From Bacteroidota bacterium (GTDB taxonomy: Bacteria; Bacteroidota; Bacteroidia; Bacteroidales; JAGNHN01): a DNA stretch of 64,000 nt. The notes beneath the pieces were generated by a model. That model was not told where the DNA came from. It did not search any database and saw only the letters and a program-made list of their open reading frames with translations. The translations under genes and the position numbers were made by a program. Each line of letters starts with the position of its first letter. Position 1 is the first letter of the stretch. The DNA lies in contig JAKLHK010000003.1 of assembly GCA_022710185.1 (NCBI GenBank), forward strand, positions 1-64,000, written 5' to 3'. This document shows, one piece after another, positions 2,663 through 16,792 of this stretch.

Positions 2663-3358
2663 TCAGCCTGCATCCGAAATTTGCCTGAGCAGCTCTGGCT
2701 TGAGGATCACAATCTCAGGACCATTGATGCGTATGATTCCGTCTTTGCGGAACTCTGATAGGATCCGGATGACATTCTCCGGCCGCATATCGATCAGTTC
2801 TGAAATCTCCTTGCGCGAAACGGGGAGGTCAAAGGCCAGGGTATTGTATATATTCTCTGCGAAATCGAGCAGGATATGGGCAATGCGGCCCCTGAGGTGT
2901 TTCATGCTGAGCGAGAACTTGGCCTGAAGCACATCATCCGTGGCCTGGCTCATCCGCCGGATGATGTCCAGTGCGAATTTTCCGTTGTTCAGGATTTCAT
3001 GGTGTATGCAATCCTTGTTGATAAAGCATACCGAAGAGTCTTCTATGGCAGTGATGGAGTATCGGTAGAGATCGTTCGAAAAGACGGAAAGCAGGCCGAC
3101 AAAATCGAACGGACGGGCTATGCTGATGATCTGGCTCCGACCGTCAGATGTCGTCTTGTGCAACTTGATCAGTCCTTTATGAAGGTAGATGATCGCTTGA
3201 ATAGCCGATCCTTCCCGCACAATCAGCTCACCCTTTCCGAAAAGGTGCTGGCTCTTACAGGTGTTCAACCGCCCCAGCTCATCCCGGCTCAATGAATCGA
3301 ACATCATCGACCTGAACTGGCACACGGTGCAATCCGGGGACTTAATCTGCATACTCAC
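2663..3358 (-). CDS. Crp/Fnr-family transcriptional regulator
   Basis: A 231-residue cytosolic DNA-binding regulator. The N-terminal segment carries a CxxC pair (Cys10, Cys13) followed by Arg, a pattern common in Bacteroidota Fnr-like proteins. A cyclic-nucleotide-type beta-roll follows (roughly residues 30-130, with FGKGELIVREGS and GLIKLHKT). The C-terminal winged helix contains DLPVSRKEISELIDMRPENVIRILSEF, a typical Fnr recognition helix. The Cys set of E. coli Fnr for a [4Fe-4S] cluster is not complete, so what it senses is unknown. It is transcribed divergently from the sulfide:quinone reductase-like gene, and the gap holds two TGATnnnnATCA boxes. Control of that operon and autoregulation are the natural inference. 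Confidence 0.92.
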   Translation of the reverse strand: MSMQIKSPDCTVCQFRSMMFDSLSRDELGRLNTCKSQHLFGKGELIVREGSAIQAIIYLHKGLIKLHKTTSDGRSQIISIARPFDFVGLLSVFSNDLYRYSITAIEDSSVCFINKDCIHHEILNNGKFALDIIRRMSQATDDVLQAKFSLSMKHLRGRIAHILLDFAENIYNTLAFDLPVSRKEISELIDMRPENVIRILSEFRKDGIIRINGPEIVILKPELLRQISDAG

Positions 3359-3402
3359 TTCGGCCTGATGCCCTGGGGGTCATATCAGCTCAGGGCTCAC
3401 TC

Positions 3403-3410
3403 CAAAAGTA
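3403..3410 (-). promoter_or_regulatory. Promoter of the Crp/Fnr gene
   Basis: TACTTTTG on the minus strand matches TAnnTTTG exactly, predicting a start near 3396. The FNR-type box centred at 3425.5 would then lie about 29 bp upstream of the start, over the -33 region, and the second box about 46 bp upstream. That arrangement suits autoregulation. Confidence 0.5.
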
Positions 3411-3417
3411 TGCAATA

Positions 3418-3433
3418 CATGATAATTATCATG
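3418..3433. promoter_or_regulatory. FNR/Crp-type operator 1
   Basis: A perfect 16-bp palindrome, CATGATAATTATCATG, containing TGAT-AATT-ATCA. This is the core of the Fnr consensus TTGAT-N4-ATCAA. It lies in the divergent gap between the Crp/Fnr gene and the sqr operon. Confidence 0.7.
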
Positions 3434-3436
3434 AAC

Positions 3437-3448
3437 TGATACTTATCA
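3437..3448. promoter_or_regulatory. FNR/Crp-type operator 2
   Basis: TGATACTTATCA has the same half-sites as operator 1 (TGAT-ACTT-ATCA). The centres are 17 bp apart. The half-sites match those expected for the adjacent Crp/Fnr regulator. Confidence 0.68.
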
Positions 3449-3539
3449 TGCCCTGCCCTGTTTGCGGATTCACAATGCCAGCTACATTTACCCCCGTTAG
3501 ATAGGCCATGGTTTTGAAACATTTGGAAATACTTTGACT

Positions 3540-4778
3540 ATGAAGAAGATCCTGATCCTGGGAGGCGGCACAGCCGGAACCATCATGGTGAACAAGCTCC
3601 GAAAGGCACTGGAGCGCGAAGAATGGGAAATCACCATTGTGGACCAGCACCGCACCCACTATTACCAGCCCGGGTTCCTGTTCATTCCGTTTGACATATA
3701 TACCCGTCACGATGTCGTTAAACCTAAAGGGGACTTCTTTCCGGCAGGGGTTAACGTGGTGTACGCTGCCATCGACCGCATTGAAGCGGACCGAAACCGC
3801 GTCCACCTTGAAGGCGGGACTTTTCTCCAGTACGATTTCCTGATCATCGCCACGGGCACACAGACCCGACCCGATCAGACGCCCGGATTGAAGGATGCGC
3901 TCTGGTATAAAGAGATCTTCGATTTTTACACTATCGAGGGTGCGGTAGCCCTGCGCGACTTCTTCCGAAAGTGGGAAGGTGGCCGTCTGGTGATGAACAT
4001 CGCCGATTTGCCATACAAATGTCCGGTAGCCCCGCTCGAATTCATCTTCCTTGCAGATGCCTACTTCACGAAGAAAGGCATGCGTGATAAGGTGGACATT
4101 ACCTATGTGACCCCGCTGCCCGGAGCTTTCACCAAACCAGTGGCCACCCGTATGCTCAGTGAGCTGCTGCAGGAGAAGAACATCCATATCGTGCCGGAGT
4201 TTTACCTTGAGCGCATTGATAACGAGAACAAAAAGCTGATCAGCTACGATGAGCAGGAGGTTCCATTCGATGTACTGGCCATCGTTCCACTCAATATGGG
4301 CTCGGATATGATCGCACGGAGCGGACTCGGGGATGACCTCAATTATGTGCTTACCGACAAGCATACCCTGAGGAGTGAAAAGTACGAGAACATTTTTGTA
4401 CTGGGTGACGCAGCTAATCTTCCGACTTCGAAGGCGGGCAGCGTGGCCCATTTTTCGGCTGAGATCCTGTTCGAAAACCTGATGTCGGCCATTGAAGGAC
4501 GGCCCCTGCTCGCCAAATTCGATGGCCACGCCAACTGCTACATCGAGACCGGGTTCGGAAAGGGCTCACTCATCGATTTCAATTATGAAACCGAACCGCT
4601 GCCCGGGACTTTCCCACTGCCCGGTGTCGGACCATTCGGCCTGCTGAAGAACACCAAAATGAACCACTACGGCAAGGTGCTCTTCCGCTGGATCTACTGG
4701 CACATCCTTCTTAAAGGCAAGGAATTGCCCGTGGAAGCGGAGATGACAATGGCCGGAAAGAAGCTCTGGAAATTCTAA
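3540..4778 (+). CDS. sqr: Sulfide:quinone oxidoreductase-like flavoprotein
   Basis: A FAD-dependent pyridine-nucleotide-disulfide-type oxidoreductase of 412 residues, expected to oxidise sulfide and pass electrons to the quinone pool at the membrane. The N-terminal GGGTAG is the FAD Rossmann motif (residues 8-13). ATGTQTRP is the second FAD segment, and VLGDAANLPTSKAG binds the flavin near residue 287. Only two Cys are present. Cys161 in YKCPVAP and Cys333 in NCYIETG are the two conserved SQR redox Cys; the third Cys of type I SQR is absent. The ATG at 3540 is preferred over a TTG at 3534. It heads a tight four-gene cluster with DUF1641, TusE-like and DsrE-like genes. Another electron acceptor or a persulfide substrate remains possible. 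Confidence 0.87.
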   Translation: MKKILILGGGTAGTIMVNKLRKALEREEWEITIVDQHRTHYYQPGFLFIPFDIYTRHDVVKPKGDFFPAGVNVVYAAIDRIEADRNRVHLEGGTFLQYDFLIIATGTQTRPDQTPGLKDALWYKEIFDFYTIEGAVALRDFFRKWEGGRLVMNIADLPYKCPVAPLEFIFLADAYFTKKGMRDKVDITYVTPLPGAFTKPVATRMLSELLQEKNIHIVPEFYLERIDNENKKLISYDEQEVPFDVLAIVPLNMGSDMIARSGLGDDLNYVLTDKHTLRSEKYENIFVLGDAANLPTSKAGSVAHFSAEILFENLMSAIEGRPLLAKFDGHANCYIETGFGKGSLIDFNYETEPLPGTFPLPGVGPFGLLKNTKMNHYGKVLFRWIYWHILLKGKELPVEAEMTMAGKKLWKF

Positions 4779-4789
4779 AGGGACAGGCA

Positions 4790-5476
4790 ATGAACGAAGT
4801 GAATGTACAGACCAGGCTCGACGAGGTCAACCAGAAACTGGACCTGCTGTTGCATTATGTCGACCAGCAAAGGCTACGTTCTGAAATGATGGAGGACCTG
4901 GTGTCTGATATCTCCATTATCGGGAAGGATATCTATCATTCCGCCGTGGTGGAGCTGGAGAACCATCAGATCGAGATTGACCCGGAGCAAGTCCGGTTAC
5001 TCATCCTGAAGTTATTGGGCAACATCAACAATTTCAGCAAACTGCTTGGAATGTTCGAGAGTGTTTCCGACCTGATGAAAGACCTGCAACCCATAGTCAA
5101 TGAGGTGCTTATCGACACCACGCATAAATTTCATGAACTCGAGCAGAAGGGATATTTTGAATTCCTGCGCGAGATGGGGAACATTGCAGATAACATCGTT
5201 ACCCATTTCACGGTGGACGATGTCCGCCTCCTGGCCGACAACATCGTGAATATCCTGGAGACAGTAAAAAACCTTACGCAGCCGGAGATGCTGAGGACAA
5301 TGAACAATGCCGTAACTGTGTTCCAGGGGATAGATTTCGAAGATATCCCTGAATACAGTATGTTCCAGGTGATGCGCGAACTGCGCAAGCCACAGATGAA
5401 AAAGGGAATGGGCTTTATGATCACATTCCTCAAGAACATGGCTGCCGCCGGAGCCAACAATCAAACCAAGAACTAA
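4790..5476 (+). CDS. DUF1641 family protein
   Basis: A 228-residue, largely helical and acidic cytosolic protein with no signal peptide and no Cys. The N-terminal QTRLDEVNQKLDLLLHYV segment looks like a coiled coil (residues 6-25). The pattern DIEDIPEYSM..MRELRKPQMKKGMGFMITFLKN near the C-terminus (residues ~178-215) is characteristic of DUF1641. The family is known to occur beside SQR-like flavoproteins and formate-dehydrogenase genes; its biochemical role is not established. The gene starts 11 nt after sqr and is followed 19 nt later by the TusE-like gene, so it is very likely cotranscribed. It may act as an adaptor for the flavoprotein, but that is inference. Confidence 0.8.
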   Translation: MNEVNVQTRLDEVNQKLDLLLHYVDQQRLRSEMMEDLVSDISIIGKDIYHSAVVELENHQIEIDPEQVRLLILKLLGNINNFSKLLGMFESVSDLMKDLQPIVNEVLIDTTHKFHELEQKGYFEFLREMGNIADNIVTHFTVDDVRLLADNIVNILETVKNLTQPEMLRTMNNAVTVFQGIDFEDIPEYSMFQVMRELRKPQMKKGMGFMITFLKNMAAAGANNQTKN

Positions 5477-5495
5477 CTTCAAATTCACAAGAAAA

Positions 5496-5807
5496 ATGGC
5501 AACAAAGACATTTGCTGGAAAGATCATCGAGATCAATGAAGAAGGATACCTTGTAAACGCCTCGGAATGGACACCTGATGTGGCGAAAGAAATTGCTGCA
5601 GAGGAAGGTATTGAGCTTACAGATCTGCATTTCAGGGTTCTGGACTTCATCCGTGACAAAGCTGGCTCGGGCGTAGCGCTTACCATCCGGTCCATCGGGA
5701 ACTCGGGGATCATCGACATTAAACAGTTCTATCAGTTGTTCCCGGGCGGACCGCTTAAGAAAGCATCCCGAATAGCCGGCATCAAGAAACCGTCAAGTTG
5801 CGTGTAA
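5496..5807 (+). CDS. tusE: TusE/DsrC-like sulfur carrier
   Basis: A 103-residue small cytosolic carrier of the DsrC/TusE/DsvC family, which moves sulfane sulfur as a persulfide on a C-terminal Cys. The sequence has the family order: beta-hairpin start, EWTPDVAKEIAAEEGIELTDLHF, the Arg-rich middle, and FPGGPLKKASRIAG before a flexible arm. The penultimate Cys102 (CysA) is present. At the position 11 residues earlier, where true DsrC has CysB, this protein has Ser91. It therefore cannot form the intramolecular CysA-CysB disulfide or the trisulfide used by Dsr systems, so a TusE-like transfer role is more likely. Its neighbours SQR and DsrE suggest it relays sulfur made by sulfide oxidation. Confidence 0.88.
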   Translation: MATKTFAGKIIEINEEGYLVNASEWTPDVAKEIAAEEGIELTDLHFRVLDFIRDKAGSGVALTIRSIGNSGIIDIKQFYQLFPGGPLKKASRIAGIKKPSSCV

Positions 5808-5824
5808 GTTACAGATAATCATTA

Positions 5825-6349
5825 ATGTCAAAGATCAATGCTATGACAACGAACGGAAATGACAAACCGCTGAAGAAAGTCTGCATCATCTGCGCCAAGG
5901 CTAACCTTGAGGATGTCTATGCATCCCTGGTACTTGCGAACGGGGCAGTTATGGAGGGTATAGAGGCCAAACTATTCTTTACCTTCTTCGGGCTCGATGC
6001 CATCACAAAAAAGCAAATGCACAAGCTGCATACGGCCACGGTCGGGAACCCGGGGATGCGCATGCCTGGTGGGCTGCCCTTTCCGACCTTGCTCGGCATG
6101 ATCCCCGGAGTTGAAGCGGGTGTGTCTGCCATGATGCGCAGCCAGATGGACAAGCTCGACATTCCAGGGGTAGAAGAGTTCCTGCAGATGATCACCGCAG
6201 GCGGAGGCGAGATATACGCCTGCAAGCTTGCGATGGATATGTTCAAGCTCACCAGGGAAGACCTGCACGAAGAGGTTTCGGGCGTTCTAACCGTGGGCGA
6301 TTTTTATGCGATGTGTGGGGGAGAAAACACCCAGATCATCTTTACCTGA
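5825..6349 (+). CDS. DsrE/DsrF-like family sulfur-transfer protein
   Basis: A 174-residue protein with the DsrE fold. KKVCIICAKANLEDVYASLVLANGAV matches the first strand and helix of DsrE2/DsrE3-type proteins, and FFTFFGLDAI the second strand. Cys133 in GEIYACKLAMDMF occupies the usual acceptor-Cys position; Cys20, Cys23 and Cys164 are additional. A hydrophobic Gly/Met-rich insertion (residues ~83-104) is typical of the DsrE2-type branch and may touch the membrane. It is the last gene of the sqr cluster, 17 nt after the TusE-like gene. The likely role is accepting persulfide from, or passing it to, the TusE-like partner. It does not look like a TusBCD subunit set, because only one DsrE gene is present. 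Confidence 0.85.
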   Translation: MSKINAMTTNGNDKPLKKVCIICAKANLEDVYASLVLANGAVMEGIEAKLFFTFFGLDAITKKQMHKLHTATVGNPGMRMPGGLPFPTLLGMIPGVEAGVSAMMRSQMDKLDIPGVEEFLQMITAGGGEIYACKLAMDMFKLTREDLHEEVSGVLTVGDFYAMCGGENTQIIFT

Positions 6350-9541: not shown

Positions 9542-12500
9542 TTGGAAAGGCTCATCAAATACTTTCTGAAGTCAGTTCTGCTCGTCCTCTTCGCCTCCAT
9601 GGTGTGGGGAGCGTCGCCCCGGCCCCTCGCCATCACGGCTCCGGCTGTGCCCCTTTTCCCACCCGACAGCGCCGGGGACTCCCTCGCCCTGCCTTTCCCC
9701 ATCCCACAGCAGCAGTACCCCTTCAGCGGATTCCCGGCAACCACCCCGGTGCACCTGGAGAACCCGTCCAATGTACAGCAGAACGTCACCTACAACCCGG
9801 ACAACAATACCTACGAGTTTCAGCAGAAAATCGGCGAACAGCCCATCGGGCCGGTGAATACCATGAGTTTCGACGAGTACCTGCGCTACGACAGCCAGCG
9901 CAGCCTCCGGAACTACTGGCGTTCCCGCTCCATGGCCTCCAACATCGACCAACGCCATGCCCTCATCCCCCAGATCAGGGTAGGCGGTGAGGTCTTCGAC
10001 CGCATCTTCGGCGGGGGCACCATCGACATCCGGCCTTCAGGGTCGGCCGAACTGCGCTTCGGCATCATCGCCAACCGCCGCGAGGACCCCACCCTCGACG
10101 TGCGCCAGCGCCGTACCGTCAACTTCGACTTCCAGGAAGACATCCAGATGAACGTCGTGGCCAAGATCGGCGACAAGATAGAGTTCAATACCAATTACAA
10201 TACCGAGGCCACCTTCGACTTCGAGAACAAGCTCAAGCTGCAGTATGAAGGCAAGGAGGACGAGATCATCAAGCTCATCGAGGCCGGGGATGTAACCCTT
10301 CCCCTGAACTCCACCCTCATCACCGGCAGCCAGAGCCTCTTCGGCATCAAGACCCGGCTGCAGTTCGGCAAGCTGATGGTCACCAGCGTCTTTTCCCAGC
10401 AGAAAAGCGAGTCCTCCAGCATCACCGTGGCCGGGGGCGCCCAAACCAATACCTTCGAGTTTTCCGCCGACGACTACGAAGAGAACAAGCACTTCTTCCT
10501 GGGGCAGTACTTCCGCGACAACTACCAACAGGGCCTCTCCCGTCTGCCCATCGTCAGCTCATCGGTCAACATCACCAAGATCGAAGTCTGGGTCACCAAT
10601 ATCGGCGCCGCCGTGACCGAAAACCGCAACATCGTCGCTTTCCAGGACCTGGGTGAGAACGACCCCTACAGCGACCGGCTTACCGGACTGCCCGGCAATA
10701 TCCTGCCCTCCAACACCAGCAACGACCTGATGCTGCGCATCGATACGGGCCAGGTACGCAAGATAGACATCGTCAACAACTACCTCAAGGCCCAGTTCGA
10801 TTTCACTTCAGGCCTCGATTTCCAAAAGGTAGAGAGCGCACGCAAGCTCAGCCCTTCGGAATACACCTACAACAGCAAGCTGGGCTTTATCTCCCTCAAT
10901 ACTTCCCTTAACCCGGACCAGGTGCTGGCCGTGGCCTTCCAGTACACCGTGATCGGACAGGATACGGTGTTCCAGGTCGGGGAATTTTCCGATCAGGGGA
11001 TCAGCAGCCCCAATTGTCTGGTGGTTAAGATGCTTAAGAGCACCACCCTCAGCACCCGGGTGCCGATGTGGGACCTGATGATGAAGAACGTTTACAGCAT
11101 CGGTGCGTTCCAGGTGAACAAGGAAGACTTCGTACTGAACATCCTGTACTCCGGCAACGAGAACGGCGTGCCCACCGGTTACCTTACCGAAGGCCCTGAA
11201 GGCGTGGAGGGCGTGCCCCTGATCCGGCTCATGGGCCTCGACCGCCTGGACCAGAACATGAACCCTCCCCACGATGGGATTTTCGACTTCATTGAAGGGG
11301 CCGCCACCAGCGGAGGGACGATCAACAGCAACAACGGCAGGATCTATTTTCCTGTGCTGGAGCCTTTCGGGAGCTGGCTGAGGGAAAAGCTGGCCAACGA
11401 CCAGCTGGCCGACAAGTATGCCTTCGACTCCCTCTACACCATGACCAAGACCGGGGCAAGGCAATTCCCATCCAAGAACAAGTTCCTGCTCGAAGGCTTC
11501 TACAAATCCAGCAGCGGATCGGAGATCTCCCTCAACGCCCTCAACGTACCCCAGGGATCGGTGAAGGTGACGGCCGGGGGCATCCCCCTGGTGGAAAACC
11601 AGGACTATACCGTTGACTACACCCTGGGAAGGGTCAGGATCATCAACGAGGGCATTCTCAATTCAGGGACCCCCATCAACATCTCCCTGGAAAGCAATTC
11701 CCTGTTCAATATCCAGACCAAGACCCTGCTCGGGACGCATTTCGATTACCAGTTCAACAACGACCTGCGCCTGGGGGCCACCATCCTCAACCTCACCGAG
11801 CGCCCGCTCACCCAAAAGATCAACTTCGGGGATGAGCCCATCTCCAACACCATCTGGGGGATGGACCTGAGTTACCAGACCCAGTCGCGACTCATCACCA
11901 AGATCATCGACAAGTTGCCTTTCTACAGCTCCAAGACCCCCTCGCGGGTGAGCGTGGAAGGGGAGTTCGCCCACTTCATCCCCGGGCATTCGCGGGCCAT
12001 CGGAAAATCCGGTACCTCCTATATCGATGACTTTGAGGGGGCCAAGTCGACCTACGACCTGAAGAACATCGGTTACTGGTTCCTGGCCAGCACGCCCCAG
12101 GGCCAGGAGAACACCCTCTTCCCTGAGGCCTCGTCCTTCTCCGGCCTCAAATACGGTTACAACCGGGCCAAGCTCTCCTGGTTTATCATAGACCCCCTCT
12201 TTTACGACAAGCGCGGGAACCTGAAGCCGGCCAATATTTCGGACGACGAGATCTCGGACCATGACGTCCGAAACGTATATGAAAACGAGGTATTCCCCAA
12301 TAAGGAGAGCCAGAACGGGCAGCCGATGAACCTGGCCGTGTTCAACATGGCCTTCTTCCCGGAAGAAAGGGGCCCATACAACTATGATGTTTTGCCCAGC
12401 CCGGGTTTTTCCCGGGGGATCAATGAAGACGGATTGCTGAACGACCCGGAGACCCGCTGGGGCGGGATCATGCGGCGCATGGAGACCACCGACTTCGAGG

Positions 12501-15500
12501 CCACCAACGTGGAATACATCGAGTTCTGGATGATGGACCCCTTCCATTCGGATACCAATCATCCCGGCGGACAGCTTTTCTTCAATCTCGGAGACATCTC
12601 CGAGGATATCCTCCGCGACAGCCGGAAGTCCTTCGAGAACGGACTTCCCACCTCCGATGTGGTGGAAAACGTGGATACCACCATCTGGGGCCGGGTGCCG
12701 ACCCTGACCTCCATAGTCAACGCCTTCGACAACAATCCCGAAGCCCGCGAATATCAGGATGTGGGCTACGACGGCCTGCGTGATGAAGATGAGGTGACCT
12801 TCTTCGATACCACCTTCCTGGAACGCATCGAAGCCGCCTTCGGGGCCGGGTCTTCCGCCTTCCAGCAGGCCTCCTCTGACCCCTCTGCCGACAACTACCA
12901 CTATTTCAGGGGATCGGATTACGACAACGACAACCGGTACAGCAGCATTCTGGAGCGCTATAAGATGTTCAACGGGCCGGACGGAAATACCCCCACCGAC
13001 CAGCAGAACCCCGAAGCCTATCCCACCTCGGCCACCACCCTGCCCAATGTGGAGGACATCAACAAAGACAACACCCTGAGCGAGGACGAGAAGTATTTCC
13101 AGTACATCGTAGATCTGCGCCCCGACCGCATGGAAGTGGGGCAGAACTACATCACGGACGTGTTCTTCGCCAAGGACATCCCCCTGGCCAACGGCAAGAC
13201 CGGCTCTGTGAAGTGGTACCAGTTCAAGATCCCGGTCCGCAGTCCCGACAAGGTCGTGGGCAACATCCAGGATTTCAAGTCTATCCGCTTCATGCGCATG
13301 TTCTTCCGCAACTTCACCGAGCCCATCGTTTGTCGTTTTGCCACCTTCGAGCTGGTGCGAGGGGAATGGAGGAAGTACGAATACGACCTGCTGTCGCCCG
13401 GAGAGTACATCCCCAACGACAACCAGTCGCAGACCAGTTTCGACATTTCTACCGTGAGCATAGAGGAGAACGGGGAACGCGTACCGGTGCCCTATGTGCT
13501 GCCTCCGGAAATTGAGCGCGAGATCAACCTGGGGACCACCAACCTGCAGCGGTTGAACGAGCAGTCGATGGTGGTCAAGGTATGCAACCTCCAGGATGGG
13601 GACGCCCGCGCAGCCTACAAGACGGCAGACTTCGACTTCAGGCAGTACAAGAAGCTGCAAATGTTCATTCATGCCGAGAAGGCCCCGGGCGGGCTGAACG
13701 ATGACGGCAGCACCCTGTACCGCGACGGTGAACTCTCCCTCTTTGTGCGCATCGGTAGCGACTTCGACCAGAACTTCTACGAATACGAGATCCCGCTGGA
13801 GTTCACCGACTGGTACGACAAGGACCAGAACGATATCTGGCCGGAGAACAACAATATGGAGATTGTGCTGGACAAGCTGGTGAATGCCAAGCAGGAGCGC
13901 AATCAGGCCCTTCGGGATCCCAATTCCGTGCTGACGCTGTCTACGCCTTTCACCATTAACGACGGCAACCGGACCATCACCGTGGTGGGTTCCCCTTCGC
14001 TCAGCGATGTACGGGCTATTATGATCGGGATACGCAACCCCAAGCGCACGTTCTTCACCTCCGCCGACGATGACGGCGAGGCCAAATGCGCTGAGGTATG
14101 GGTGAATGAGCTGCGCCTGACTGACTTCGACGAGAGCTCAGGCTGGGCCGCCACGGCCAGGGTTAACACCATGCTCGCCGACCTGGGTAATCTGGTCATC
14201 AGCGGTATGCACAGCACCCCGGGCTGGGGATCCATCGAAAAGAAGGTGAACGAGCGCGCCAAGGAGACCACCACCCAGTTTGACCTGGCCACCAACCTGG
14301 AACTGGGCAAGTTCTTCCCTGCCGAGGCCGGGCTGCGCATCCCCATGCACTTCGATTACAGCCAGACCCGGATCTCCCCCGAATACAACCCCCTGGATCC
14401 GGACATCCGGTTGAAGGAGGACCTGAAGGAAAGTTACGACACCCCAGCCGAGCGCGATTCTATCCGGTCCATGACCCAGGACCTTACCCGGAGGAAGAAC
14501 CTGAACTTTGTGAACGTCCGCAAGGAAAAGGTGGGCGGGAGCACCAAAAACCGCGTCTATGACGTGGAAAACTTCGATTTCACCTATGCTTATTCGGAGC
14601 TATACCACCGCAATGTGGACATAGAATATGACCGCAAGGAAACCCATCGCGGGGGCATTGGCTACAATTTCACCAACAACCCCAAGAACATACGGCCCTT
14701 CTCCCGGTCCAAGCTCCTGGGCAAAGGGCAGGCCCTGCGCATCATCCGCGATTTCAACTTCTTCTATGCGCCCAAGCTGCTCTCCTTCCGTACCGATGTG
14801 AACCGGGAGTACTCTGAACGCCTGCTGCGGAACAAGAGCCAGGCCAAAGTCATCCTGGAGCCCACCTACCTCAAGAAGTTCGAGTGGAGAAGGGTGTATG
14901 ACGTGAAATACGACCTCACCCAGGCCCTTAGGGTTGACTTCCAGGCCAATGCCAACGCATACATCGACGAGCCCCCGGGCCGTATCGACAAGGACGACCC
15001 CGATTACGAGCTGAAACGCGACACCATCTGGCAGGAGGTGATGAAGGGCGGATCCATGCAGAACTACAACCAGAACCTGCAGGTGAACTACAACCTGCCC
15101 ATCAACAAGCTTCCCCTGCTCAGCTTCATCAATGCTTCGGTGAGGTACGATGCCGATTACCGCTGGACCGCCTCGGCCCGTTCCGTGCAGCCTATCCTGG
15201 GCAACAGCATAGAGAATGCCGTGAACACCCAGGCCAACCTCAACCTCAACCTTCAGACGCTCTACAGCAAGGTGCCATTCCTTAAGAAGATGACCACCAC
15301 CACGCCCTCCAGGCGCCCCGGAGCCGAGCCCAGGGCGGCCAGTAAGGGGGATGCCAAGGGAGTGAAGGCCCCCGAGCCTGCGGTGGATACCACCGAGAAG
15401 CCCAAGGTCAACTACTTCGCCGAGATCGGAAAGACCCTGGTGGGTGCGGTATTCAGCCTCAAGAATGCCTCCATTTCCTTTATGGAAGGCTCGGGGACCG

Positions 15501-16792
15501 TATTGCCCGGATTCATGCCCGAGCCCAACGCCCTGGGCAACAACTGGTCGATGAATGCTCCGGGTCTGCCCTTTATCTTCGGCAGCCAGGCCGATATACG
15601 CCCCAGTGCCGTGGAGAATGGCTGGCTCTCGCGCGATACCCTGCTGAACGCGGCCTACCTCACCAAGCTCAACCGTACCATCAACGCCCGGGCCACGGTG
15701 GAGCCCCTGCCCGATCTCCGCATTGAGCTTACGGCCAACCGGACGTATGCCGAGAGCCACCAGGAGTACTTCACTGCCAATTCCAGCGGGGAGTTCCGCT
15801 CTTCTGCACCCCAGACCACCGGCAACTTCACCCTCAGCATCCTCACCTGGAACACCGCCTGGGAGAAGCAGGGAGAAGACCACAGCTCGCCCAACTTCGA
15901 AAAATTGAAGGAGTACCGCCGGGATATCGCCCTGCGCCTGGCCATGGCCAACCCCAACTGGGATGGTACCATGGTGGACTCCACCGGCTTCCCTCAGGGG
16001 TACGGGCCCACCTCACAGGCCGTGCTCATCCCGGCCTTCATCGCGGCCTATACCGGCAAGGGCCCGGAGCAGGTGAGCACCGAACTCTTCCCGGCCATCC
16101 CCCTACCCAACTGGCGGATGACCTACAGCGGCCTCACCCGCATCCCCTTCATCTCCCGCTTCCTCAAATCGCTCAATGTCACGCATTCCTACCGGTCCAG
16201 CTACAATATCGGGACCTTCCAGACCAATATCCTTTTCGAAGAGGCCAATGGCGCCCCAGCCGCCTTTAACGCCATCAACAATTATATCCCGGAATATGAG
16301 ATCGGACAGGTTTCGATCACCGAGCAGTTCGCCCCACTCATCAACTTCGATATGCAGTGGCACAACAGCCTGCTGTCAAGGATAGAGATCAAGAAGTCCC
16401 GCAACCTCTCCCTCAGCTTTGTCAATAACCAGCTCACGGAAGTCATCAGCAACGAATTCGTGCTCAGCATGGGTTACCGCTTCAAGGACGTGCAGTTCGT
16501 GATCAAGTCGGGAGGGCGTCGCTCCAATCTCAAGAGCGACCTCAACCTGAAGCTGGACCTGACCGTAAGGGACAACAAGACGGTCCTCAGGCGTATCGAT
16601 GAGGACCTGCAGCAGGTATCGGCCGGTCAGCGCAACATTGCCATCAAGTCATCCGCCGACTACCGTATCAACGAGCGCGTGGAGCTGCGGCTCTTCTACG
16701 AGCAGAACATCCTTAATCCCTTCATCTCTTCCCAGTTCCCCAACAGTACCACCAATGCAGGCCTCAGCCTGAGGTTTGCCCTGGCCCAATAG
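9542..16792 (+). CDS. sprA: Cell surface protein SprA, T9SS outer-membrane translocon
   Basis: SprA forms the giant outer-membrane beta-barrel channel of the type IX secretion system and is needed for gliding in flavobacteria. The 2416 residues match the family length of about 2400. It begins with a TTG codon: no ATG exists upstream in frame, a strong ribosome-binding sequence AGGGAGG lies just before it, and the next ATG would cut into the signal peptide (residues 1-24, hydrophobic KSVLLVLFASMVWGA). Family landmarks include repeated SprA N-terminal modules rich in Phe/Tyr/Asn, SGTSYIDDFEGAKSTYDL near residue 825, and beta-strand-rich sequence to the C-terminus. A Pro/Ala/Lys-rich low-complexity insert lies near residues 1920-1955. 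No porV or sov partner gene is in the window; two candidate cargo genes are at 46.6-50.2 kb. Confidence 0.97.
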   Translation: MERLIKYFLKSVLLVLFASMVWGASPRPLAITAPAVPLFPPDSAGDSLALPFPIPQQQYPFSGFPATTPVHLENPSNVQQNVTYNPDNNTYEFQQKIGEQPIGPVNTMSFDEYLRYDSQRSLRNYWRSRSMASNIDQRHALIPQIRVGGEVFDRIFGGGTIDIRPSGSAELRFGIIANRREDPTLDVRQRRTVNFDFQEDIQMNVVAKIGDKIEFNTNYNTEATFDFENKLKLQYEGKEDEIIKLIEAGDVTLPLNSTLITGSQSLFGIKTRLQFGKLMVTSVFSQQKSESSSITVAGGAQTNTFEFSADDYEENKHFFLGQYFRDNYQQGLSRLPIVSSSVNITKIEVWVTNIGAAVTENRNIVAFQDLGENDPYSDRLTGLPGNILPSNTSNDLMLRIDTGQVRKIDIVNNYLKAQFDFTSGLDFQKVESARKLSPSEYTYNSKLGFISLNTSLNPDQVLAVAFQYTVIGQDTVFQVGEFSDQGISSPNCLVVKMLKSTTLSTRVPMWDLMMKNVYSIGAFQVNKEDFVLNILYSGNENGVPTGYLTEGPEGVEGVPLIRLMGLDRLDQNMNPPHDGIFDFIEGAATSGGTINSNNGRIYFPVLEPFGSWLREKLANDQLADKYAFDSLYTMTKTGARQFPSKNKFLLEGFYKSSSGSEISLNALNVPQGSVKVTAGGIPLVENQDYTVDYTLGRVRIINEGILNSGTPINISLESNSLFNIQTKTLLGTHFDYQFNNDLRLGATILNLTERPLTQKINFGDEPISNTIWGMDLSYQTQSRLITKIIDKLPFYSSKTPSRVSVEGEFAHFIPGHSRAIGKSGTSYIDDFEGAKSTYDLKNIGYWFLASTPQGQENTLFPEASSFSGLKYGYNRAKLSWFIIDPLFYDKRGNLKPANISDDEISDHDVRNVYENEVFPNKESQNGQPMNLAVFNMAFFPEERGPYNYDVLPSPGFSRGINEDGLLNDPETRWGGIMRRMETTDFEATNVEYIEFWMMDPFHSDTNHPGGQLFFNLGDISEDILRDSRKSFENGLPTSDVVENVDTTIWGRVPTLTSIVNAFDNNPEAREYQDVGYDGLRDEDEVTFFDTTFLERIEAAFGAGSSAFQQASSDPSADNYHYFRGSDYDNDNRYSSILERYKMFNGPDGNTPTDQQNPEAYPTSATTLPNVEDINKDNTLSEDEKYFQYIVDLRPDRMEVGQNYITDVFFAKDIPLANGKTGSVKWYQFKIPVRSPDKVVGNIQDFKSIRFMRMFFRNFTEPIVCRFATFELVRGEWRKYEYDLLSPGEYIPNDNQSQTSFDISTVSIEENGERVPVPYVLPPEIEREINLGTTNLQRLNEQSMVVKVCNLQDGDARAAYKTADFDFRQYKKLQMFIHAEKAPGGLNDDGSTLYRDGELSLFVRIGSDFDQNFYEYEIPLEFTDWYDKDQNDIWPENNNMEIVLDKLVNAKQERNQALRDPNSVLTLSTPFTINDGNRTITVVGSPSLSDVRAIMIGIRNPKRTFFTSADDDGEAKCAEVWVNELRLTDFDESSGWAATARVNTMLADLGNLVISGMHSTPGWGSIEKKVNERAKETTTQFDLATNLELGKFFPAEAGLRIPMHFDYSQTRISPEYNPLDPDIRLKEDLKESYDTPAERDSIRSMTQDLTRRKNLNFVNVRKEKVGGSTKNRVYDVENFDFTYAYSELYHRNVDIEYDRKETHRGGIGYNFTNNPKNIRPFSRSKLLGKGQALRIIRDFNFFYAPKLLSFRTDVNREYSERLLRNKSQAKVILEPTYLKKFEWRRVYDVKYDLTQALRVDFQANANAYIDEPPGRIDKDDPDYELKRDTIWQEVMKGGSMQNYNQNLQVNYNLPINKLPLLSFINASVRYDADYRWTASARSVQPILGNSIENAVNTQANLNLNLQTLYSKVPFLKKMTTTTPSRRPGAEPRAASKGDAKGVKAPEPAVDTTEKPKVNYFAEIGKTLVGAVFSLKNASISFMEGSGTVLPGFMPEPNALGNNWSMNAPGLPFIFGSQADIRPSAVENGWLSRDTLLNAAYLTKLNRTINARATVEPLPDLRIELTANRTYAESHQEYFTANSSGEFRSSAPQTTGNFTLSILTWNTAWEKQGEDHSSPNFEKLKEYRRDIALRLAMANPNWDGTMVDSTGFPQGYGPTSQAVLIPAFIAAYTGKGPEQVSTELFPAIPLPNWRMTYSGLTRIPFISRFLKSLNVTHSYRSSYNIGTFQTNILFEEANGAPAAFNAINNYIPEYEIGQVSITEQFAPLINFDMQWHNSLLSRIEIKKSRNLSLSFVNNQLTEVISNEFVLSMGYRFKDVQFVIKSGGRRSNLKSDLNLKLDLTVRDNKTVLRRIDEDLQQVSAGQRNIAIKSSADYRINERVELRLFYEQNILNPFISSQFPNSTTNAGLSLRFALAQ

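Follow-up and report, generated by a model that had tools for sequence, protein, structure and literature searches.

Sulfide:quinone oxidoreductase (SQR) is usually regarded as a self-sufficient, single-protein enzyme. Why, then, would an SQR gene share an operon with a gene of the DUF1641 family and two sulfur-carrier genes? The question is raised by a stretch of 64,000 nucleotides ("the window") on contig C23 (JAKLHK010000003.1) of a Bacteroidota assembly (GCA_022710185.1; 3.28 Mb, 92% complete). Here, four plus-strand genes, for an SQR, a DUF1641 protein, a DsrC/TusE-like protein, and a DsrE2-like protein, face a divergent minus-strand gene for a CRP/FNR-type regulator, and the gaps between the four are only 11, 19, and 17 bases by the open reading frame (ORF) calls. 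The answer that we lean toward, drawn from sequence comparison, is that the four genes make up a unit for sulfide oxidation linked to menaquinone, in which DUF1641 would serve as the quinone helper, sulfur would be relayed from DsrE2 to DsrC, and control would be of the FNR type. The five genes are the following (aa, amino acids):

2663-3358, minus strand: CRP/FNR-family regulator, 231 aa (ORF; cNMP_binding and HTH_Crp_2 domains)
3540-4778, plus strand: type III SQR, 412 aa (NF049943, Cys form)
4790-5476, plus strand: DUF1641 protein, 228 aa (Pfam; profile match to ForE1)
5496-5807, plus strand: DsrC/TusE-family protein, 103 aa (Pfam, NCBIfam)
5825-6349, plus strand: DsrE2-like protein, 174 aa (PF13686, DrsE_2)

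An earlier reading, made from the sequence alone, had named these genes at these positions, and the ORF calls and the Pfam and NCBIfam matches agree with it. The SQR start was set at the ATG at 3540 rather than the TTG at 3534 because an ATG stands at the aligned position in 100 of 109 relatives.

That reading also proposed looking for the four genes together in other genomes. A genome scan with the window flavoprotein, combined with a sample of the phylum, gave 110 SQR loci, and the order SQR-DUF1641-DsrC-DsrE2 recurs in about 90 loci. Few of the loci related to the window depart from this order, and the regulator usually lies divergently upstream. DUF1641 was detected in 91 of 111 fetched loci, a total that includes two overlapping copies of the window. 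The exceptions to the order are loci without DUF1641, truncated contigs, and the loci of one family (f19) in which SQR occurs alone; six of the latter have none of the three partners inside the stretch examined. The f19 family may be green sulfur bacteria, an unverified label that comes from gene content. Judged by this conservation, the four genes form a genuine set, widespread and conserved among bacteria, for putative sulfide oxidation.

The flavoprotein matches the model NF049943 ("type III SQR, selenoprotein subtype") with 652.1 bits against a cut-off of 525, whereas the second-best family model reaches only 63 bits. Its best solved relative, by sequence and by fold, is human SQOR, and the alignment between the two spans nearly the whole window protein. 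In human SQOR, the catalytic trisulfide is carried by its two redox cysteines (PMC12510033). The codons of the corresponding pair are the following:

4020-4022, plus strand: Cys161 of the SQR, in PYKCPVAP (Cys in 110 of 110 rows)
4536-4538, plus strand: Cys333 of the SQR, in HANC, the selenocysteine position of selenoprotein members (Cys in 110 of 110 rows)

A review classes the NF049943 family as a selenoprotein with the motif HxxU (PMC13188914). Since a cysteine occupies that position in every row, the window SQR is a cysteine member of the family and not a selenoprotein. With type III SQR it shares the full-length match, the two redox cysteines, and a C-terminal amphipathic region; it differs in the cysteine at the HxxU position and in having a dedicated DUF1641 gene. 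By homology and conserved residues, the enzyme would use Cys161 and Cys333, beside the FAD, to oxidize sulfide, leaving sulfane sulfur. One could consider instead an enzyme that reduces NADH, CoA disulfide, or polysulfide, since the protein is in the same superfamily as type II NADH dehydrogenase (NDH-2) and the CoA-disulfide reductases and has weak matches to both. The wide margin between 652 and 63 bits, the cysteine pair, and the near-full-length alignment to SQOR make this highly improbable, and an NDH-2 or CoA-disulfide reductase identity was rejected on model scores and cysteines. The same evidence upholds the SQR assignment of the sequence-only reading.

The role of DUF1641 as an SQR partner is best seen in its gene neighborhood. 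The window protein matches PF07849 with 28.3 bits (gathering score, 21). In 395 genomes of the Bacteroidota phylum, for which match coordinates were compared and eleven further regions read, 20 DUF1641 genes were found, a lower bound because the 39-position model is weak. All 20 adjoin a gene of the SQR family, spread over two SQR subfamilies, and chance clustering of the operon genes was rejected on this count. In the second subfamily (L128-L138), DUF1641 usually lies upstream rather than downstream of the SQR, which scores approximately 215-250 bits against NF049943 and whose active site, in the copy read, is of the CGGAPQ type. Genome G231 has a Pfam DUF1641 match (C10:66557-66670) directly before an SQR-like ORF, a gene missed by the family profile built here.

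The pairing extends to the archaea. In haloarchaea, seven of the seven plasmid-borne SQR homologs opened have DUF1641 immediately downstream, and five have TusA upstream. The haloarchaeal TusA-SQR-DUF1641 cluster (e.g., on pHH400 of Haloarcula hispanica) resembles the window operon in the placement of DUF1641 directly after SQR, with sulfur carriers and YeeE nearby. It differs in its use of TusA, a divergent or absent DsrE, the lack of a nearby DsrC, and an SQR only about 30% identical. In the proteome of Ignicoccus hospitalis, the DUF1641 protein Iho_0672 rose 10-fold together with the flavoprotein Iho_0673, which rose 5-fold (PMC3149612); the two gene numbers are consecutive. No DUF1641 was found beside the SQR homolog in the one Chloroflexota locus and the one cyanobacterial locus examined. 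These neighborhoods make DUF1641 a very likely partner of SQR, as the sequence-only reading had suggested. The family at large is probably not exclusive to SQR, given its occurrence with formate dehydrogenase, a Huc-type hydrogenase, and apparently NDH-2. A literature search, which did not extend to subscription papers, found no description of the SQR-DUF1641 pairing or of the four-gene operon, nor any mention of CT0876, the Chlorobaculum homolog. As a separate observation, a plasmid of Halobellus limi carries two flavoprotein-DUF1641 pairs in tandem (L119:2441-6062).

What would such a partner do? In PDB entry 9a63, YjlC, which we take to be a DUF1641 protein, is modeled together with the NDH-2 YjlD by an integrative approach based on crosslinking; YjlC is not mentioned in the main text of the papers on the crosslinking-based models. 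YjlD reduces quinone and belongs, like the window SQR, to the flavoproteins of the SQR superfamily, though it oxidizes NADH and not sulfide. Searched with a profile built from the Bacteroidota DUF1641 proteins, the solved structures gave one convincing match, ForE1 of Bacillus subtilis (8rqz; E 4.9e-6). The formate dehydrogenase ForC1 depends on ForE1 to bind menaquinone and to reduce menadione, and ForE1 also influenced ForC1 activity with an artificial acceptor (PMC8808070); of the DUF1641 systems, ForE is the one for which menaquinone binding with a partner dehydrogenase has been demonstrated. The likeness to ForCE lies in a homologous DUF1641 gene (ForE) adjoining the gene for a menaquinone-reducing dehydrogenase; the differences are that the catalytic partner is a molybdenum enzyme and not an SQR flavoprotein, and that ForE1 is shorter. 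The operon of a Huc-type hydrogenase also contains DUF1641 (PMC12976888). By analogy among these systems, the thread common to the DUF1641 partners is quinone reduction. DUF1641 therefore probably helps SQR electrons reach the membrane quinone pool; it would be an accessory subunit that aids menaquinone use, as ForE does for formate dehydrogenase, with the genomic data arguing strongly for the partnership and the homologs suggesting the quinone role. A bolder statement is that DUF1641 is a hitherto undescribed second SQR subunit across domains, forming or gating the menaquinone site, and a quinone module shared by SQR, NDH-2, and some formate dehydrogenases and hydrogenases, with the Bacteroidota enzyme feeding a DsrE2/single-cysteine DsrC relay free of TusA and DsrAB. 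This is a serious candidate that we nonetheless lean slightly away from.

DUF1641 could also be a membrane-recruitment or assembly factor for the SQR rather than a quinone adaptor. The family is predicted to be all-helical, the window copy has no cysteine, and the effect of ForE1 on ForC1 with an artificial acceptor would fit such a role. However, the SQR keeps its amphipathic C-terminal region both with and without DUF1641, which means that anchoring alone does not need DUF1641, and ForE affects menaquinone binding specifically. We consider a purely recruiting or assembling role rather unlikely.

The next step of the proposed unit concerns the fate of the sulfur inside the cell. The DsrC/TusE-like protein matches Pfam DsrC (90 bits) and the subfamily model TIGR03342 (76.3 against a cut-off of 53.5) but misses the TusE equivalog NF008562 (60.9 against 191). 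Its C-terminus, SRIAGIKKPSSCV, has the penultimate cysteine (CysA) only. At the CysB position, about 10 residues before CysA, the window has a serine, and a cysteine is found in just 3 of 98 DsrC-like rows. By these matches and residues, it is a member of the DsrC/TusE subfamily that is neither a two-cysteine dissimilatory DsrC nor a TusE equivalog. The DsrE2-like protein, similarly, matches Pfam DrsE_2 (90.6 bits; cut-off, 25) and misses the DsrE2 equivalog NF047629 (93.2 against 210). The candidate relay cysteines are encoded as follows:

5799-5801, plus strand: Cys102 (CysA) of the DsrC-like protein (Cys in 96 of 98 aligned rows)
6221-6223, plus strand: Cys133 of the DsrE2-like protein, in IYACKLAMDMF (Cys in all 92 ungapped rows)

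Sulfane sulfur would pass from the SQR to Cys133 of DsrE2 and from there to the lone cysteine of the DsrC/TusE-like protein. The whole would behave as an SQR equipped with a quinone partner of the ForE type and a sulfur relay of the DsrE/DsrC type.

Could the DsrE2/DsrC pair feed a biosynthetic relay instead, such as tRNA 2-thiolation by the TusBCD/TusE route of E. coli, with sulfur from the SQR persulfide? The single CysA is like that of TusE-type members, and the protein is the sole DsrC of the window genome, which also has a single DsrE2-type protein. The Tus relay normally begins with TusA. A search for TusA (PF01206) gave no match in the window genome, compared to matches in 11 of 14 control genomes, and an E. 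coli-type Tus relay was rejected for this reason. Outside f19, DsrC occurs in 38 of 38 genomes with a window-type SQR and in only 3 of 291 without, counts whose significance is inflated by genome relatedness. This exclusivity is clear, and since most sampled genomes have no DsrC, it is a poor fit to a housekeeping role in tRNA. A biosynthetic relay is improbable, and the "TusE" label of the sequence-only reading should be dropped in favor of a single-cysteine DsrC/TusE-family protein, given the missed equivalog cut-off and the lack of a TusA match. In four loci (L099, L100, L101, and L103), the SQR ends in AGKCxxC, a C-terminal CxxC absent from other relatives; three of the four carry the only two-cysteine DsrC forms.

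Several points weigh against a sulfide oxidation unit with DUF1641 as its quinone helper. Fourteen related loci with the order SQR-DsrC-DsrE2 have no DUF1641 and fall into two lineages or more, which means that the SQR there can do without it and that it is not universally required. The tree needs about four changes in the presence of DUF1641, of which well-supported branches make two or more unavoidable, so the gene was lost or gained more than once. An AlphaFold model of an SQR-DUF1641 fusion from a relative (L051), in which the stop between the two genes was read through as a computational device only, reached a predicted TM-score (pTM) of 0.69 with a predicted local distance difference test (pLDDT) of 45-83 in the DUF1641 half, and no interface was readable. 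DUF1641 alone folds poorly (pTM 0.25), and a fold search with that model gave no match. Related genomes were sampled, so the counts overstate independence. Lastly, no sulfur sink was identified, as the searches of the window genome (92% complete) for dsrA, aprA, and TusA were without match. SoxY also had no match in the window genome, though none was found in the control genomes either. On the electron side, the window genome has cytochrome bd, a possible quinol sink.

A lead to the missing partner is found on another contig of the window genome, C6. It carries two rhodaneses, two YeeE-type sulfur transporters, NrfD, an FeS protein, and a PhsA-like molybdenum enzyme with a twin-arginine-like leader. 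This cluster faces a Rieske protein and a cytochrome b/multiheme protein, and two CRP/FNR-type regulators adjoin. In 18 other loci, parts of the cluster flank the SQR operon, upstream or downstream of it and in both orientations, which makes the PhsABC/YeeE/rhodanese cluster the best lead for the operon's putative working partner. One could therefore see the operon as half of a sulfur cycle with a periplasmic PhsABC-type oxidoreductase acting on thiosulfate or polysulfide: the molybdenum enzyme would make or consume sulfide outside, YeeE would import sulfur, and SQR, DsrE2, and DsrC would handle it inside. The cluster is complete on C6, in addition to its recurrence beside the operon. However, the putative PhsA-like enzyme misses the PhsA cut-off (453 against 694 bits); the operon and the cluster are on different contigs in the window genome; and in most relatives with long flanks, the two are not adjacent. 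The cycle is possible but doubtful. A comparable sulfur route, the YTD/DsrEFH type II set of cable bacteria and disproportionators, also joins YeeE, a DsrE-type transferase, and DsrC, but it uses TusA and DsrAB, whereas neither TusA nor dsrA was found in the window genome and its DsrC-like protein has one cysteine.

Two side observations concern this cluster. The protein that faces it beside the Rieske protein (L124:7812-11048 for the two) is a 910-aa cytochrome b fused to a multiheme cytochrome c region; this is possibly a quinol-linked complex. The paired rhodaneses (L124:1329-2630 on C6, and those of L074, L076, L106, L107, and L109) have a basic stretch followed by a C-terminal GGC in 12 proteins from six genomes, apparently a tail that carries sulfur or serves as an anchor.

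The sulfide oxidation unit proposed here would be switched by the adjacent regulator, and two palindromic boxes lie upstream of the SQR:

3420-3431, no strand: FNR-like box 1, TGATAATTATCA, a perfect TGAT-N4-ATCA palindrome
3437-3448, no strand: FNR-like box 2, TGATACTTATCA, TGAT-N4-ATCA, 17 bp downstream of box 1

Both resemble the FNR operator TTGAT-N4-ATCAA. A box lies within 350 bp in 41 of 55 divergent loci by the strict pattern and in 48 of 55 by the relaxed one, where first-order resampling predicts 1.1 and 2.0; inside the SQR gene, it was found in 0 of 54. The regulator itself scores 57.7 bits against the Fnr model, short of the cut-off of 228. Cys10, Cys13, and Cys111 are present in 55 of 55 divergent copies, additional cysteines at 8 and 32 in 29 of 55, and Cys34 in two copies only (the window and L032). 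Compared to E. coli FNR, four cysteine ligands in that spacing are not found, as a fourth cysteine occurs only in some copies. By its sequence the regulator is FNR-like, for which Fe-S sensing is plausible, and it would control the operon through the tandem boxes, whose conservation points to a binding site. The Fnr regulation claimed in the sequence-only reading thus stands for the operator and is weakened to "FNR-like" for the protein. Some Flavobacteriaceae loci (e.g., L091 and L102) have no adjacent divergent cysteine-bearing regulator and an upstream palindrome of TGAC-N4-GTCA, which suggests a different CRP/FNR-type regulator.

Should a dedicated quinone-coupling subunit prove to belong to many SQRs, the consequences would reach both the assays of these enzymes and the understanding of DUF1641. 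DsrC would also gain a role in many Bacteroidota without the Dsr pathway, and sulfide oxidation in sediment-type Bacteroidales could be traced with the operon as a concrete set of marker genes. The operon's neighbors are genes for malate dehydrogenase and for malic enzyme/phosphotransacetylase, and at 9542-16792 the window holds the gene for a 2416-aa SprA-type secretion protein (PF14349).

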